Part shown: positions 22,032 to 29,574 of the stretch, in pieces | Layout of the letters: each line of letters begins with the position of its first letter | How positions within the stretch are numbered: position 1 is the stretch's first letter | From: Bacteroidia bacterium | GTDB lineage: Bacteria; Bacteroidota; Bacteroidia; Bacteroidales; Prolixibacteraceae | Length of the DNA stretch: 64,000 nucleotides | Direction: 5' to 3' | NCBI GenBank assembly: GCA_026391655.1 | Contig: JAPLDR010000019.1 | Span: forward strand, 138,880 to 202,879 | Program-made: the position numbers and the translations under genes | The notes under the pieces: generated by a model | Database searches by the model: none | Seen by the model: the letters and a program-made list of their open reading frames with translations, nothing else | Told to the model about the DNA's origin: nothing

Positions 22032-23924
22032 ATGAAAACAATTGGCATCTTGATACTAGGTCTGATTTTCAGCAACCTATTATTCTCACAAGAGATTAAA
22101 GTAGTAGAAATTAAAACCGATGTAAATGAGGTAACTGTGTTTATTTCAGGAGCTCAGGTTATTCGAAAGAAGAGTGTTGATATCACTCAGGGAAAATCAA
22201 TCCTAAAGTTTGTAAACCTATCACCATTCATTGATCCAAAGAGTGTTCAGGTAAAAGTCGAAGGAGAATTAACAGTATTATCGGTTAATCATCAGCAGAA
22301 TTATCTCGACAAGATGGAAAAACCCAAAGAACTTCAGGATTTGGAAAAATCTATTGATGCCATTGAATCCAAAATCAAACAAGAGAACACTTATCTGTCG
22401 ATTATCAAGGAAGAATTGGCATTTCTTCAGGAGAATAGAACCATTGGCGGAAGAAACGAGCAGATAAGCGTTACCAATCTTCAACAAGTGTCGGATTTTT
22501 ACAGTAACAAGCTTACCGCTTTAAAATTAAAGGAGATAGAAAGAAACAACACCCTTGAAGATTTGAATAAACAAAAAACTGATATCCAAAACCAGATTAA
22601 AACATTGACAAGTAAAAAGGAATTTCCGACCGGAGAAATACTCGTTAAAGTTGATGCTAAGAAAAACGGTAATTTTTCGTTTGAGATTTCGTATGTTGTT
22701 GGCAATGCCGGATGGTTTCCTTCTTATGATATCAGGGCAAAAAATATCAATGAACCGGTTCAGTTGATTTACAAGGCCAATGTAAAACAAGACACAAAAG
22801 AAGACTGGAACAATGTAAATTTAAAATTTTCATCTTCCGATCCGAATGTTTCAGGAGTGGCACCCGAATTAAAAACTTACTTTTTGAATTATAATACTTT
22901 ACCTCCTACTTACAAACTTACGGCGAATGGTGTAAGTGGAAAAGTAACCGATACCAAAGGAGTACCATTGCCAGGTACAAACGTAGTCGTTCAGGGAACT
23001 ACAATCGGAACAGTAACCGACATGGAGGGAAATTATTCAATTACAATCCCAAACAATGCAATTCAGATCAGTTTTTCATTTGTCGGGTTTAATTCACAAA
23101 CAATTCCTATAAATGGCAGCGTAATGAATGTTGCTTTGGAGGAAAATACCATGGCTTTGGAAGAAGTTGTAACCGTTGGTTACGGTTCACAAAAAAAGCT
23201 TTCACTTTCAAATGTTTTTCAGGGAAGGGTTGCAGGGCTAGCAGTTGGTGGTAAATCTGATATTAAAATACGCGGAACAAGTAGTCTGGCCATACCAACA
23301 GCGCAGGTTGAGAAACAGACTACCGTGAATTTTGAAATTAAAACGCCCTATACAATTAAATCTGACAACAAAAACTATACTGTTGATATTGAGTTTTATG
23401 ATCTGCCTGCCATCTATCAATACTATTGTGTTCCCAAGATTGATAAAGATGCTTTCTTAATTGCAAAGATCATTGATTGGGAGAAATATAGCCTTCTGGA
23501 GGGTGAAGCCAATGTTTTCTTTGAGGAAACCTATGTAGGCAAAACTCTTTTAGATGTTCGTTACGCTTCGGATACTTTAGAGATTTCATTGGGTAGAGAC
23601 AAAAAGGTGTCAGTCAATAGAGAAAAGATCAAAGACTTCACTACCAAACAATTCATAGGCAATAAAAAAGAGGAAACACGAACATGGAAAACAACGGTGA
23701 AAAACAATAAAAATCAGGAAATTAATATGATTGTTCTTGACCAGGTTCCTGTTTCAACGGCAGAGGATATAGAAGTAAATGTGTTAAATATTTCTGGGGC
23801 AAAACATGATTTAGAAACTGGCGAAATAAAGTGGGAGTTTTCATTAAATCCAGTGGACAAAAAGGAATTAGATTTAAAATATTCGGTTAAATATCCTAAA
23901 TACAGAAACTTGATTATCGAATAA
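22032..23924 (+). CDS. MuiA-family (DUF4139) protein with embedded CarboxypepD/SusC-plug-like segment
   Basis: 630 residues. A signal peptide (1-19) precedes a DUF4140 N-terminus, a coiled-coil (about 95-200), the first part of DUF4139 (to about 290), and an inserted carboxypeptidase-regulatory-like domain (about 300-375, GKVTDTKGVPLPGTNVVVQG). A stretch copying the start of a SusC TonB-dependent receptor follows (EEVVTVGYGSQKK, FQGRVAGLAVGG, IKIRGTSS; about 380-425). DUF4139 then resumes to the end. MuiA-type proteins are envelope proteins of unclear role. The receptor piece lacks any barrel. Single gene of its cassette, with complementary cassette ends. Confidence 0.8.
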   Translation: MKTIGILILGLIFSNLLFSQEIKVVEIKTDVNEVTVFISGAQVIRKKSVDITQGKSILKFVNLSPFIDPKSVQVKVEGELTVLSVNHQQNYLDKMEKPKELQDLEKSIDAIESKIKQENTYLSIIKEELAFLQENRTIGGRNEQISVTNLQQVSDFYSNKLTALKLKEIERNNTLEDLNKQKTDIQNQIKTLTSKKEFPTGEILVKVDAKKNGNFSFEISYVVGNAGWFPSYDIRAKNINEPVQLIYKANVKQDTKEDWNNVNLKFSSSDPNVSGVAPELKTYFLNYNTLPPTYKLTANGVSGKVTDTKGVPLPGTNVVVQGTTIGTVTDMEGNYSITIPNNAIQISFSFVGFNSQTIPINGSVMNVALEENTMALEEVVTVGYGSQKKLSLSNVFQGRVAGLAVGGKSDIKIRGTSSLAIPTAQVEKQTTVNFEIKTPYTIKSDNKNYTVDIEFYDLPAIYQYYCVPKIDKDAFLIAKIIDWEKYSLLEGEANVFFEETYVGKTLLDVRYASDTLEISLGRDKKVSVNREKIKDFTTKQFIGNKKEETRTWKTTVKNNKNQEINMIVLDQVPVSTAEDIEVNVLNISGAKHDLETGEIKWEFSLNPVDKKELDLKYSVKYPKYRNLIIE

Positions 23925-25557: not shown

Positions 25558-26547
25558 TTAATTTATTAAATCAAGCTTAATCATGTCCTGAACGTCGAGC
25601 ATTCCGATGGGAAGTCCGTTTTCAGTTACGATGATATTATCGACCTGGTTGGCATTAAAAATTTCGGCAGCTTTCTGAAGAAATGCGTCACCTTCAATCG
25701 AAATAGGATTGGTTGTCATACATTCTCCTACGGATGCGGTATGGATATGTTCCCCTAATTTACGCATCTGACGGCGCAGATCACCATCGGTGAATATGCC
25801 GGTAAGTTTACCATTGGGGGTCACAACAGAAACAGCACCCATTCCTGAGTCGGTCATTTTCAGTAGCGCATCAAGCACTTTGCAGTCGATGTCGACTACG
25901 GGGTTGGCATCCGAAATAACACTTTTTACCTGAATGGTCATCAGTCGTGTATGTTGAAAGAACTGATCGGTCCCCAATTTTGTCAGGTGATTATCAGCCA
26001 GCTTTTTCATAATGCTCCATGGAAGTGTAATATTGTGTGCTCCCAGCATCAGCGCATCCTTCACATGTTCCGGATACCGTACCGACGAAAACATCACTTT
26101 GCAATCGTATTTGTATTCTTTAATGACATCGACAATTTGTTTGACCAAACCAAGTGCATCATGACCCTGATCCTGCATCCGGCCTACCAGGACACAAACA
26201 TAGTTTGCTCCGGCTGTTAATGCCATGTATGCTTGCTGAATGTTGTAAACAAGATGCAAATTGACTAAAAACCCTTCATTATGAAGCTTTTTACATGCTT
26301 TTACCCCTTCGAAATTGACCGGGATTTTAAATACTGTTTTTTTCTTGTCCAGTCCAAGGTCAAGCAGACGATGTGCTTCGGTAACAATTTGTTCGGAAGT
26401 TTCACCCAACGCTTCTATCATCAGCACCGGGACCATTTTTGACAATTTAATGATCGCACCATCGATATCAGTAATACCGTTTTTGTGCATAAATGTAGGT
26501 GTAGTGGTAACACCATCAATGATCCCCAGTTTTTTGACTGGCGGCAT
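25558..26547 (-). CDS. Transaldolase-like (FSA/TalC) domain fused to a CBS pair
   Basis: 329 residues from the ATG at 26547. Residues about 1-205 are a small transaldolase/fructose-6-phosphate aldolase barrel: LGIIDGVTTTPTF, Schiff-base lysine in VFKIPVNFEG, NLHLVYNIQQA, and VLVGRMQDQGHDALG. The first strand, which carries the usual catalytic Asp, is missing, and VTTNP reads VTTTP. Residues about 210-329 are two CBS repeats very like those of arabinose-5-phosphate isomerase KdsD (GIFTDGDLRRQM). The gene overlaps kdsA by 32 nt in another frame. A role in supplying or regulating arabinose-5-phosphate for Kdo synthesis is inferred. Confidence 0.72.
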   Translation of the reverse strand: MPPVKKLGIIDGVTTTPTFMHKNGITDIDGAIIKLSKMVPVLMIEALGETSEQIVTEAHRLLDLGLDKKKTVFKIPVNFEGVKACKKLHNEGFLVNLHLVYNIQQAYMALTAGANYVCVLVGRMQDQGHDALGLVKQIVDVIKEYKYDCKVMFSSVRYPEHVKDALMLGAHNITLPWSIMKKLADNHLTKLGTDQFFQHTRLMTIQVKSVISDANPVVDIDCKVLDALLKMTDSGMGAVSVVTPNGKLTGIFTDGDLRRQMRKLGEHIHTASVGECMTTNPISIEGDAFLQKAAEIFNANQVDNIIVTENGLPIGMLDVQDMIKLDLIN

Positions 26548-27286
26548 CACATAATGCCCGCGTTGGATCGGGATGCACCTCAATAAACAGTCCATCAATT
26601 CCGGCTGCTACTCCGGCACGTGCCAAAGTCGGAATAAACTCCCGTGAACCACCCGCTGGATCTGAACTCGGAATCCCATATTTGCGAATGGAGTGCGTCA
26701 CATCGAAAACGACGGGATAACCCGTGGTCCGCAAATGGTAAAAACTTCGCGGATCAACAATCAGGTCGTTGTATCCAAAAGTATAACCTCTTTCCGTGAC
26801 CAAAATATTAGTGTTTCCGGCTTGTTCTACTTTACGTACCGGTTTAATCATGTTCTCGGGAGCCAGAAACTGTCCGTGTTTAAGATTGATCACCTTCCCC
26901 GTTTTTGCTGCTTCAACAACGAGTGTGGTTTGCATTACAAGGTAAGCCGGTATCTGTATCACGTCAACAACTGCTGCTGCGGCTTTAATCTGATCGGGAT
27001 AATGAATATCGGTAAGTATCGGAACTTTGAATTGTTTTTTAATTTTTTGAAGTATTGCAAGACCTTTCTCTATCCCTGGTCCGGAATAAAAATCGGCTGA
27101 ACTGCGATTATCTTTCTGAAATGAAGATTTGAAAATCAGCGGAAGATCAAGCTTTTGCGATAGTTCCACCAAAAATTCGGCAGTATCCATCATCGTTTTC
27201 TCATCTTCAACTACACATGGTCCGGCAATCAGAAAAAGTTTGTCAGCGCCACATTCAACATTTCCTACTCTAACTATTTTCTTCAT
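26516..27286 (-). CDS. kdsA: 3-deoxy-8-phosphooctulonate synthase KdsA, C-terminally shortened
   Basis: 256 residues. It condenses arabinose-5-phosphate with phosphoenolpyruvate to Kdo-8-phosphate. Family motifs are intact: IAGPCVVEDE, FKSSFQKDNRSS, GPGIEKGL, DIHYPDQ, GYTFGYNDL, VFDVTHS and GLFIEVHPDPTRALCDAAS. The protein ends five residues later, losing the last helix (about 20-30 residues) found in E. coli and Aquifex enzymes. Skipping one A of the six-A run at 26530-26535 would carry the frame directly into the transaldolase-CBS protein. It lies 10 nt downstream of kdnB. Confidence 0.9.
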   Translation of the reverse strand: MKKIVRVGNVECGADKLFLIAGPCVVEDEKTMMDTAEFLVELSQKLDLPLIFKSSFQKDNRSSADFYSGPGIEKGLAILQKIKKQFKVPILTDIHYPDQIKAAAAVVDVIQIPAYLVMQTTLVVEAAKTGKVINLKHGQFLAPENMIKPVRKVEQAGNTNILVTERGYTFGYNDLIVDPRSFYHLRTTGYPVVFDVTHSIRKYGIPSSDPAGGSREFIPTLARAGVAAGIDGLFIEVHPDPTRALCDAASQKTGDH

Positions 27287-27296
27287 TATAAGTATT

Positions 27297-28373
27297 TTAC
27301 ATTTTCAATAGCAGGCCACGGAGTTTTTCCCGCGTGATAATTTTCTCCCAATCGGGGCCGCAAACATGTGCCCACATGAATACAAGTGTGAGCGTTACAT
27401 CGATCATCCGATCAATCTCTTCAGGAGTACATTTAACTGTTACGCCTTTGGGAAGTTCTATATTATTGACCCTCATCATCTCTTTGAACTCTTTCACTCC
27501 TTCAGGATAAAATTCTTCGAGTTGATTGAAAACCACACAATTGCCAACGCCATGATGGATTCCTGTAACAGTGGCCAATCCATACGAAATCGCGTGGCAA
27601 GCCCCGACCTCCGAATAGGTCAACGAAAGTCCGCCAAGATATGAGGCGATCATCAGTTTCTCTTCGTTTTCGGGTGAGCGGCTGTCGTTACTAAGATAGA
27701 TATCCCTGCAAAGACGAAGCGATTCAGCTCCTAAAGAATCTCCCATTACAGTTTTGCGGTGACCCGTAGATGCTTCAATATTATGAATATAGCAATCCAT
27801 TGCCGTATAGAATCTTTGTGGTTCAGGTACTGAAGTAATCAATTCCGGATCGATCACCAGCTGATCGGCAGGTGTAAAATTACCTTTAATTCCAAGCTTC
27901 TTCACTGGCCCGGTCAAAACAGTGGTCATTGATACTTCTGCACCTGTGCCCGAAATTGTGGGGACGACTGTGCAATGAACTCCCTTGTTTTTTATAAGAT
28001 CAAGTCCCTGATATAATGCGGATGAACCCTCGTTGGTAAACATGAGTCGGATTGCCTTGGCGTAATCCATCACAGTGCCACCTCCGATTCCAACAACCGA
28101 AACGGGCAAACCTGAACGAAGGCTTTTTACCCCGGCAACAATTGCATCAACAGTTTTGGTTTTGGGCTCGTCTGTAACATCAATAATTTTCAAAATATCC
28201 TGTGAATGAAGCGGAATCCGTTTCATAAAATCTTTGCCTTCAAAATATTCATCAACAAGAAAAAGAACATATGAATCCTTTTCAATGCGCAATTCGCCGA
28301 GTACATCCCCTAATTGGTCAAAGCTGTTTCGACCATAAAGAATCCGTCCGATTGCCTTTAAATTTCTGAACAT
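27297..28373 (-). CDS. kdnB: Kdo 8-oxidase-like iron alcohol dehydrogenase (KdnB)
   Basis: 358 residues. It is an iron-dependent alcohol dehydrogenase closely resembling Shewanella KdnB, which oxidises C8 of Kdo. NAD motif GIGGGTVMDYAKA; substrate/metal region PTISGTGAEVSMT; metal histidines in DCYIHNIEASTGH and GIHHGVGNC; conserved QLEEFYPEGVKEF. The operon position between kdnA (7 nt) and kdsA (10 nt) supports the specific assignment over a generic alcohol dehydrogenase. Confidence 0.88.
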   Translation of the reverse strand: MFRNLKAIGRILYGRNSFDQLGDVLGELRIEKDSYVLFLVDEYFEGKDFMKRIPLHSQDILKIIDVTDEPKTKTVDAIVAGVKSLRSGLPVSVVGIGGGTVMDYAKAIRLMFTNEGSSALYQGLDLIKNKGVHCTVVPTISGTGAEVSMTTVLTGPVKKLGIKGNFTPADQLVIDPELITSVPEPQRFYTAMDCYIHNIEASTGHRKTVMGDSLGAESLRLCRDIYLSNDSRSPENEEKLMIASYLGGLSLTYSEVGACHAISYGLATVTGIHHGVGNCVVFNQLEEFYPEGVKEFKEMMRVNNIELPKGVTVKCTPEEIDRMIDVTLTLVFMWAHVCGPDWEKIITREKLRGLLLKM

Positions 28374-28380
28374 ACGCTAA

Positions 28381-29574
28381 TTATTTAAGTACTTTTTTAA
28401 GTGCCGAACGCATTTTAACTGCCAGCATGTTTAATTCCTCTTCGCTCCATGTTACCATAATCTGAATCATCATCAATTTCTGCATAATTGCATCCGATTG
28501 AGGGACCTGCATATTCCGATAGTCAGGAGCATTGTTCATCTTCATTATTGGAAGATTGTAGATTGATTTCATCTCTTTCAAATGTCCCCATTGGCGATGG
28601 AAATGGAAATTATTCCGGTACCAATACGAGGCACTAAGTCCTTCTTTCTGAAACTCGTCAAAAGCTTTCACTGCTTTGTCAGGATCGGGAAGAAAGAACG
28701 AAAGGAATGTTGCTGAATCTCCTTCTTCGTCGGGGACATGTCTCAATTTTATTTCGGGAAACTCCTGCAAAACCTGTTTAAGAACTTTCTGGTGGGCCTT
28801 TTGTTTTTCGATCATATAGGGCAACTTGCGAAGTTGTGCCAAAACGACCGCAGCGCCAAGTTCCGATCCGCGGAAATTGTATCCGAGAATAGGATGCTGT
28901 TCAGCTCCCCTGGCATTTCCAATGTGGTCGTGACCATGATCGGAAAATTTATGCGCCTTTTCGTATAATTCGTCGTCATTTGTCGCTACAGCACCACCTT
29001 CGCCGGCGGTAATAATTTTGTAAAAGTCGAACGAGAAAGCTGACATTTTACCAAAATTACCGAGCATTTTACCTTTATAACTTCCTCCAAGTGCAGGCGC
29101 AGCATCTTCAATCAATATAAGATTGTGTTTCCTGCAAACTGCAAGTATTTCATCCATTCTGCCCATAGATCCGAAAACCTGAATAAGCAAAACCGCCTTT
29201 GTTCGGGGTGTTATCGCTTTCTCAATCCCTTCAGGGCTCAAACACAATGTTTCGTCAATTTCTGCAAATACGGGAACCGCCCCCGCTACCAGTACTGCTT
29301 CAATAGGTGCGATAAATGTATAAGGAGGAACAATTACTTCGTCGCCATAACCTATGCCACAACATGCAAGAGACAATGAATCAGCTGCTGTTCCGCTTGC
29401 GCAGAAATGGGTGTGCTTTGCACCTAGATAAACGCTGAATTCCTGTTCGAATGTTTTGGCTTTCCAAACGCCATTACGTTGTGCATCATGATTATATCGA
29501 AACAGTATTCCTGTTTCGAGCACGTCCATTACTTCTTTTCGTTCTTCATTTCCGAAAAGTTCAGTACCTGCCAT
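28381..29574 (-). CDS. kdnA: 8-amino-3,8-dideoxy-octulosonate transaminase (KdnA)
   Basis: 397 residues. A DegT/DnrJ/EryC1-type PLP aminotransferase. The lysine for PLP is in FSFDFYKIITAGEGGAVATN; FAEIDETLCLSPEGIEKAIT and HKFSDHGHDHIGNARGAEQH match the Shewanella KdnA pattern I remember. It transfers an amino group to the C8 aldehyde made by KdnB, giving 8-amino-Kdo, which replaces Kdo in the lipopolysaccharide inner core and raises polymyxin resistance in Shewanella. First gene of the operon. Confidence 0.87.
   Translation of the reverse strand: MAGTELFGNEERKEVMDVLETGILFRYNHDAQRNGVWKAKTFEQEFSVYLGAKHTHFCASGTAADSLSLACCGIGYGDEVIVPPYTFIAPIEAVLVAGAVPVFAEIDETLCLSPEGIEKAITPRTKAVLLIQVFGSMGRMDEILAVCRKHNLILIEDAAPALGGSYKGKMLGNFGKMSAFSFDFYKIITAGEGGAVATNDDELYEKAHKFSDHGHDHIGNARGAEQHPILGYNFRGSELGAAVVLAQLRKLPYMIEKQKAHQKVLKQVLQEFPEIKLRHVPDEEGDSATFLSFFLPDPDKAVKAFDEFQKEGLSASYWYRNNFHFHRQWGHLKEMKSIYNLPIMKMNNAPDYRNMQVPQSDAIMQKLMMIQIMVTWSEEELNMLAVKMRSALKKVLK

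Follow-up and report, generated by a model that had tools for sequence, protein, structure and literature searches.

Where does an operon for the synthesis of 3-deoxy-D-manno-octulosonic acid (Kdo) obtain its arabinose 5-phosphate (A5P) if the gene beside kdsA encodes a transaldolase-like protein and not the isomerase KdsD? Most Gram-negative bacteria require Kdo for their outer membrane, and its precursor A5P is generally taken to come from KdsD. The question is raised by a stretch of 64,000 nucleotides, hereafter the window, from a Bacteroidia bacterium of the family Prolixibacteraceae (assembly GCA_026391655.1, contig JAPLDR010000019.1, positions 138,880 to 202,879 of the forward strand). 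From 29574 to 25558 on its minus strand, the window carries four close co-directional genes, kdnA, kdnB, kdsA and a fourth gene, which we call TAL-CBS since it encodes a transaldolase barrel (TAL_FSA) and two CBS domains. In Shewanella, KdnA and KdnB convert Kdo to 8-amino-Kdo (Kdo8N). Judged from sequence, TAL-CBS is probably a non-orthologous replacement of KdsD, which would supply A5P to its partner synthase, here named KdsA', by Schiff-base chemistry of the aldolase type and under feedback control by a CBS pair of the KdsD type. The claims on its function rest on intact relatives and not on the window copy, which is truncated.

Domain composition of the fourth protein

The domain search of the fourth protein found no match to the SIS domain (PF01380), and a TAL_FSA barrel (PF00923) was found instead. 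Its two CBS domains (PF00571) matched the CBS part of the KdsD/KpsF/GutQ model TIGR00393 with 62.8 bits at model positions 154-259. The initial annotation, which had described a KdsD-like CBS pair with a transaldolase barrel replacing the SIS domain, was thus correct on this point. A profile of the CBS part of TAL-CBS scored 63-79 bits on 15 KdsD records (some of them one gene fetched twice) and 42.7 bits on one CBS protein of 494 aa, IMP dehydrogenase-like by length. TAL-CBS shares with KdsD/KpsF/GutQ the type of CBS pair, the place beside kdsA and near mutual exclusion across genomes, and differs from them in having a class I aldolase barrel instead of the catalytic SIS domain. From the small transaldolases and fructose-6-phosphate aldolases (MipB/TalC/FSA) it differs in its fusion to CBS domains, in a uniformly changed donor pocket, and in its score against TIGR00875 (fsa_talC_mipB), which was 142.8 for the truncated window copy and 163.8 for an intact relative, both below the curated cut-off of 245.95.

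Distribution of KdsD and TAL-CBS

Two sets of genomes were surveyed, one drawn from the phylum (395 genomes) and one from the class (295 genomes of 156 genera). The KdsD model matched 283 genomes of the phylum draw and 167 of the class draw; these counts include short forms, with 277 and 154, respectively, lying above the family cut-off. In the phylum draw, KdsA was present in 288 genomes and full-length TAL-CBS in six (with E values no higher than 5e-133, the next match having 3e-47). All six have KdsA and none has KdsD, which was found in 277 of the 282 other genomes with KdsA (Fisher 6e-10). In the class draw, TAL-CBS was found in 56 genomes of 26 genera, and KdsD was present in three of these versus 164 of the 239 others (Fisher 2.6e-19; the p-values and the co-occurrence counts ignore the relatedness of genomes). 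The initial annotation had suggested that TAL-CBS stands in place of kdsD and points to a different source of A5P, and had proposed to check whether genomes with the fusion lack kdsD. With KdsD lacking in 6 of 6 such genomes phylum-wide and in 53 of 56 class-wide, the surveys support this suggestion. Eight families (f1, f21, f27, f29, f34, f79, f85 and f108) include both KdsD-only and TAL-CBS members. Incompleteness as a general cause of the missing KdsD was set aside, because completeness was rated at 90% or more and contamination at 5% or less in 48 of the 56 TAL-CBS genomes. If the replacement is true, pathway reconstructions based on KdsD would miss a branch found in about one sixth of the class draw, where 53 of the 295 genomes have TAL-CBS and no KdsD (four of them with a degenerate form).

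The presence of kdsA was also compared. It was found in 49 of the 56 TAL-CBS genomes of the class (45 of 52 in one search, plus G000, G131, G186 and G230), and in 3 of the 75 class genomes with neither KdsD nor TAL-CBS (3 of 74 in one search; not in G081). Seven TAL-CBS genomes have no kdsA, namely five of family f77, G565 (67% complete) and G506.

In family f77, TAL-CBS is divergent (loci L227, L228, L229, L230 and L232 of genomes G612, G536, G477, G508 and G562): it has lost the Schiff-base lysine together with the majority of its active-site residues, and these genomes have no kdsA. This form is possibly a pseudoenzyme or a pure CBS sensor. That the lysine, Lys86, is lost along with kdsA would agree with its taking part in the synthesis of the KdsA substrate. 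The five loci are included in the 56 of the class and were set apart in the residue and gene-context counts given below.

In the genus of the window, TAL-CBS was found in 17 of 18 genomes, being missing in G002 (68% complete) and split over two contigs in G014, and it was also present in the family genomes G023 and G024. A normal kdsD elsewhere in the window's own genome, which the initial annotation had named, in combination with an absence of Kdo8N, as counting against its suggestion, was not seen: none of the three KdsD-model matches spans the SIS part, and four SIS-domain matches are present, not individually assigned. Neither the genus nor G024 gave a match that reached the strength of KdsD; weak matches to the SIS part in G009 and G011 (39 bits, 352-aa frames) and frames of GlmS size were not counted as KdsD. 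Each of the family genomes without TAL-CBS, G018-G022, encodes a short protein resembling KdsD that has no CBS domains and scored 159-167 bits over model positions 1-153 (cut-off 203.7).

The short KdsD of several family members (G018-G022, and locus L273 of G023) was seen as open frames of about 200-235 aa. In genus g310, a normal KdsD was seen alongside TAL-CBS (L270 of G652 and L271 of G672); in G652, kdnA-kdnB-kdsA (L274) lies on a different contig from TAL-CBS, and this kdsA is 80% identical to the TAL-linked type. Genomes with kdsA and with neither KdsD nor TAL-CBS were G063, G240, G312, G343 and G398 (66% complete) in the phylum draw and G583, G655 and G663 in the class draw; G063, G240, G312, G343 and G663 may have a further source of A5P or genes that were missed. 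A scan of viral contigs found no relatives.

Gene neighbourhood

Other genomes of the window's family supplied 18 loci, at all of which kdnB, kdsA and TAL-CBS were contiguous, so the window operon is not a chance arrangement; kdnA was seen at 17, L065 being cut within kdnB by the start of its contig. At 52 loci outside the family, genes on the same strand as TAL-CBS included kdsA at 31 (within 300 bp at 27), a gene for a KdsC-like phosphatase at 41 and kdsB at 15, with at least one of the three at 44. No kdsD was found near TAL-CBS at any of the 52 loci. These counts come from a scan that drew some of its tblastn queries from L148, L150 and L152 themselves; L181-L232 were read for Kdo genes only, and several stretches are cut by contig ends.

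The initial annotation had also tied the fourth gene to Kdo8N. The loci surveyed tie the gene to kdsA (and kdsC/kdsB) and not to Kdo8N in particular. Outside the family, kdnA and kdnB were each found at 11 of the 52 loci, nine on the same strand. The order in L150 is kdnA-kdnB-(PIN-like, by eye)-kdsA-TAL-CBS-kdsC-kdsB, and L148 and L149 have kdsA-TAL-CBS-kdsC and no kdnAB. Eight TAL-CBS genomes, picked for lacking kdnAB near the fusion, were searched for KdnB; five have it elsewhere, and it was not found in G332, G614 and G501. Since kdnAB is missing at some loci and KdnB in three of these eight genomes, we conclude that TAL-CBS is linked to the synthesis of Kdo as a whole, with Kdo8N as a frequent but not a necessary accompaniment. 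The view that TAL-CBS is peculiar to the genus of the window or to Kdo8N was rejected on the class spread, the gene context and the KdnB-less genomes.

The KdsC-like HAD phosphatases beside TAL-CBS are about 230 aa long, and two of them (L148:9063-9752 and L150:7170-7865) gave no Pfam match at E 0.001.

Active-site residues and proposed mechanism

The structural model of an intact relative (mean predicted local distance difference test score 88.1, predicted template modelling score 0.58) matched the transaldolase of Thermoplasma acidophilum with Z 29.6 and a root-mean-square deviation of 1.4 over 194 aligned residues. TAL-CBS has in common with the small transaldolases the fold (Z about 27-30) and the residues Lys86, Asp6, Glu57 and the phosphate-binding Arg and Ser. 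Among 70 TAL-CBS sequences, 18 of which are close relatives, Asp6, Glu57 and Lys86 were kept in 69 (the other is a fragment) and Arg135, Ser167 and Arg169 in all. The Schiff-base lysine and the phosphate-binding Arg/Ser that mark TIGR00875 are thus present, and the active-site residues Asn28 and Thr110 that mark it as well are replaced. The changes are N28T in 69 of 70 sequences and T110H, F113Y, S130C, F132L and A166S in 70 of 70, versus 35 control transaldolases (the best ordinary matches of the searches, not a random sample) in which N28, T110 and F113 were found in all and S130, F132 and A166 in 34.

These residues bear on one alternative, in which TAL-CBS would have the usual activity of a transaldolase or fructose-6-phosphate aldolase and its place in the operon would have no functional meaning. 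The fold and the retention of the catalytic lysine, Asp6, Glu57 and the phosphate site agree with it. We regard it as very unlikely, given that N28, T110, F113, S130 and F132 are replaced in 69-70 of 70 sequences and kept in 34-35 of 35 controls. Ordinary forms are moreover common, with more than 100 TAL-only matches in the phylum draw, and the exclusion of KdsD would be left unexplained.

In TalB and FSA, N28 and S130 bind dihydroxyacetone at its hydroxymethyl end, and F132 lines the donor side. All three are uniformly lost and the phosphate end is retained, which suggests a donor that has no hydroxymethyl end, i.e. glycolaldehyde. We propose that Lys86 would carry a two-carbon unit at the level of glycolaldehyde as an enamine/imine at C1, that the pocket of Ser167, Arg169 and Arg135 would hold the phosphate of glyceraldehyde 3-phosphate (GAP), and that formation of the C2-C3 bond would then give A5P. 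The two-carbon unit could come from free glycolaldehyde, or from ribose 5-phosphate by retro-aldol cleavage in place and re-addition; the latter route would need no free glycolaldehyde, and the by-product of TalB F178Y described below is a precedent in kind. The KdsD-type CBS pair may give feedback control, probably by cytidine monophosphate-Kdo (CMP-Kdo) or CMP-Kdo8N. A PDB entry (3upb) is titled as a transaldolase covalently bound to A5P. PMC9947464 and PMC6298115 describe the formation of A5P from glycolaldehyde and GAP by FsaA; with TalB F178Y, ribose 5-phosphate arises as a by-product as well.

A different use of the same residues would make TAL-CBS an isomerase that converts ribulose 5-phosphate to A5P like KdsD, without an aldol step; catalysis, by acid/base or imine chemistry, would fall to Lys86 and the new His110. 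A simple swap would be accounted for if the enzyme took the same substrate as KdsD, the CBS pair is of the same type as in KdsD, and His110 is present in 70 of 70 TAL-CBS and in none of the 35 controls. On chemical grounds, a lysine imine at C1 or C2 cannot release the isomerised sugar without migration of the imine; N28 and S130, which presumably hold the hydroxymethyl end of ketose donors, are lost; and we know of no isomerase in this fold family. Isomerisation therefore appears unlikely, and formation of A5P by an aldol step is the reading we prefer.

The partner synthase KdsA'

In a tree of 57 KdsA sequences, a branch (length 2.0, support 100/100) divides the 37 TAL-linked ones and L252 from the canonical ones. 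L252 is a KdsA that is not linked to TAL-CBS and comes from a TAL-CBS genome; the canonical side holds 17 canonical sequences and the second copies L250 and L251. The sample took in six of the family's 18 loci, a further 31 with kdsA in the stretch and 20 hand-picked fetched genes, and is not random; the window's own KdsA is absent from it, L250, L251 and L252 belong to no label group, and several long branches were flagged. Two genomes, G568 and G534, have a canonical kdsA in addition to KdsA', together with TAL-CBS and no KdsD. As their canonical KdsA would need A5P, these genomes (two only) favour A5P as the product of TAL-CBS.

Several points weigh against TAL-CBS as the replacement of KdsD. 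Both occur together in G652 and G672 (full KdsD) and in G562 (short form), and also in G023 (Prolixibacter denitrificans DSM 27267, short KdsD), which indicates that both can run in parallel. Genome G506, which is 96% complete, has TAL-CBS and no kdsA, and 8 of the 52 loci outside the family are without a nearby kdsA, kdsB or kdsC-like gene. The catalytic activity of the TAL-CBS members is itself a prediction, and free glycolaldehyde is not known to be an abundant metabolite. Furthermore, KdsA' has the fixed changes A47D, R106M, K125H and Q188R (38 sequences versus 19 canonical; numbering of Aquifex aeolicus KdsA, read from the alignment). D47, which falls in the KANRSS motif, M106 and R188 were found in 38 of 38 sequences of the TAL-linked type; the 19 canonical sequences, which include two second copies from TAL-CBS genomes, all have A, R and Q. 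KdsA' also has P190Y (P in 18 of 19 canonical sequences) and an insertion of one residue just after this stretch. The changed stretches presumably touch the substrate, and we likewise take these positions to belong to loops; the substrate of KdsA' may, on its sequence, be other than A5P. Finally, P. denitrificans and P. bellariivorans each hold both types of kdsA.

The separate KdsA' clade, its changes near the substrate and the two Prolixibacter species with both types would fit a parallel pathway with a different product, in which TAL-CBS makes another aldose phosphate, and KdsA' and a divergent KdsC-like phosphatase turn it into a Kdo analogue activated by KdsB. Two KdsC-like proteins of the cassette are indeed divergent, with 54.6 and 63.4 bits against the KdsC cut-off of 208. 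We find this pathway improbable on four counts. The stereochemistry of transaldolases with glycolaldehyde should, as we understand it, give the D-arabino configuration; a single kdsA was seen in 43 of the 45 kdsA-bearing genomes among the 52 TAL-CBS genomes of one search, so the product would have to serve wherever Kdo is needed; and the KdsB adjoining TAL-CBS (one examined) scores as an ordinary KdsB. KdsA' also keeps, as mapped in the alignment, the key residues of KdsA named in PMC6650799 (Lys50, Lys55, Arg58, Lys133, Arg163 and His197 in the model numbering of that paper).

Replacement of KdsD by an aldol-forming TAL-CBS could be part of a wider picture, in which a sizeable share of Bacteroidia has a second Kdo route. 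A dedicated CBS-regulated class I aldolase would make A5P by C-C bond formation (from glycolaldehyde and GAP, or from ribose 5-phosphate), and the co-evolved KdsA' and phosphatase would form with it one co-inherited cassette that has displaced kdsA and kdsD in several families. We put this forward tentatively, with rather more doubt than confidence. To our knowledge, no other enzyme found in nature has aldol formation of A5P as its dedicated function, so that TAL-CBS would be the first, and an aldol route that we know only from engineered pathways would have a natural counterpart. The KdsD-type CBS pair on a different catalytic domain also makes the question of feedback testable. The Kdo pathway is known; among the open-access matches listed, no transaldolase-CBS protein or KdsD replacement was described in the titles and the starts of the abstracts, nor was the replacement enzyme, its fusion or the co-inherited KdsA'. 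In the engineered assimilation of glycolaldehyde, an 'Ara5P aldolase' (FsaA or TalB F178Y) is likewise a class I aldolase that forms A5P from glycolaldehyde and GAP; that pathway differs in being synthetic and in running onward via KdsD towards ribulose 5-phosphate, and the available parts of PMC9947464 and PMC6298115 name no natural dedicated enzyme.

The window operon

The coordinates of the operon are given in Table 1. The initial annotation had recognised kdnA and kdnB by their likeness to the Shewanella enzymes and kdsA as the third gene, and all three assignments held. KdnA had 5k8b (KdnA) as its top PDB match (E 8.8e-137, residues 1-382), the next match being 1.3e-48 and 290 bits lower. 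KdnB had 5k8c (KdnB; E 7.6e-113, residues 2-355 of the window protein), followed by 3rf7 (E 1.3e-111), an iron-type alcohol dehydrogenase without a specific name, and then a drop to 2.3e-21. The closest characterised relatives of both are therefore the Shewanella proteins, over nearly the full length. KdsA scored 325.2 bits with TIGR01362, above the cut-off of 314 despite its truncation. Orthologues of both S. oneidensis KdnA and KdnB thus head the window operon, which differs from the Kdo8N pathway of that species in having TAL-CBS where the Shewanella pathway draws on KdsD-made A5P.

Table 1. Features of the Kdo operon in the window
Feature	Position	Strand	Description	Evidence
kdnA	28381..29574	minus	397 aa, pyridoxal phosphate-dependent Kdo 8-aminotransferase homologue (DegT type)	PF01041; best PDB match 5k8b
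kdnB	27297..28373	minus	358 aa, iron-type alcohol dehydrogenase, Kdo 8-oxidase homologue	PF00465/PF25137; best PDB match 5k8c
kdsA	26516..27286	minus	TAL-linked type (KdsA'), C-terminus cut by junction gap	TIGR01362; relatives have 25-27 more residues
Junction	26532..26533		147 bp of relatives missing (deletion or assembly error)	MAFFT against three same-genus loci
TAL-CBS frame	25558..26547	minus	From in-frame ATG, without first 17 residues	Intact length in relatives 341 aa
Transaldolase barrel	25936..26535	minus	Small transaldolase / fructose-6-phosphate aldolase barrel, incomplete	PF00923 E 1.2e-33
Schiff-base lysine codon	26326..26328	minus	Lys86 of intact protein	Alignments; Lys86 in title of PDB 3s1w as mutated residue
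CBS pair	25558..25935	minus	KdsD type	PF00571 in two stretches; TIGR00393 62.8 bits

The four genes had been placed correctly in the initial annotation; the gap that truncates kdsA and TAL-CBS was overlooked. Alignment with three relatives of the same genus revealed that 147 bp are absent at about 26532/26533, which removes the last 25-27 residues of KdsA and, from TAL-CBS, the first 17, among which are strand 1 and the conserved Asp6. The intact TAL-CBS of the relatives starts with MEFFLDSAN, and homology to the open reading frame of the window begins at residue 22-23 of that frame. Because the 147 bp are missing, the 346-aa frame with a TTG start reads back into kdsA; it was rejected as the true protein, as the relatives open with the strand that is missing here. 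No second full-length copy of TAL-CBS was found in the window's own genome, which is rated 96% complete. The gap may be a true deletion or an assembly error, either of which would produce the layout of the window.

Elsewhere in the window, positions 22032-23924 encode a 630-aa protein with a long N-terminal part and an inserted stretch resembling, by eye, a carboxypeptidase-regulatory/TonB-plug domain.

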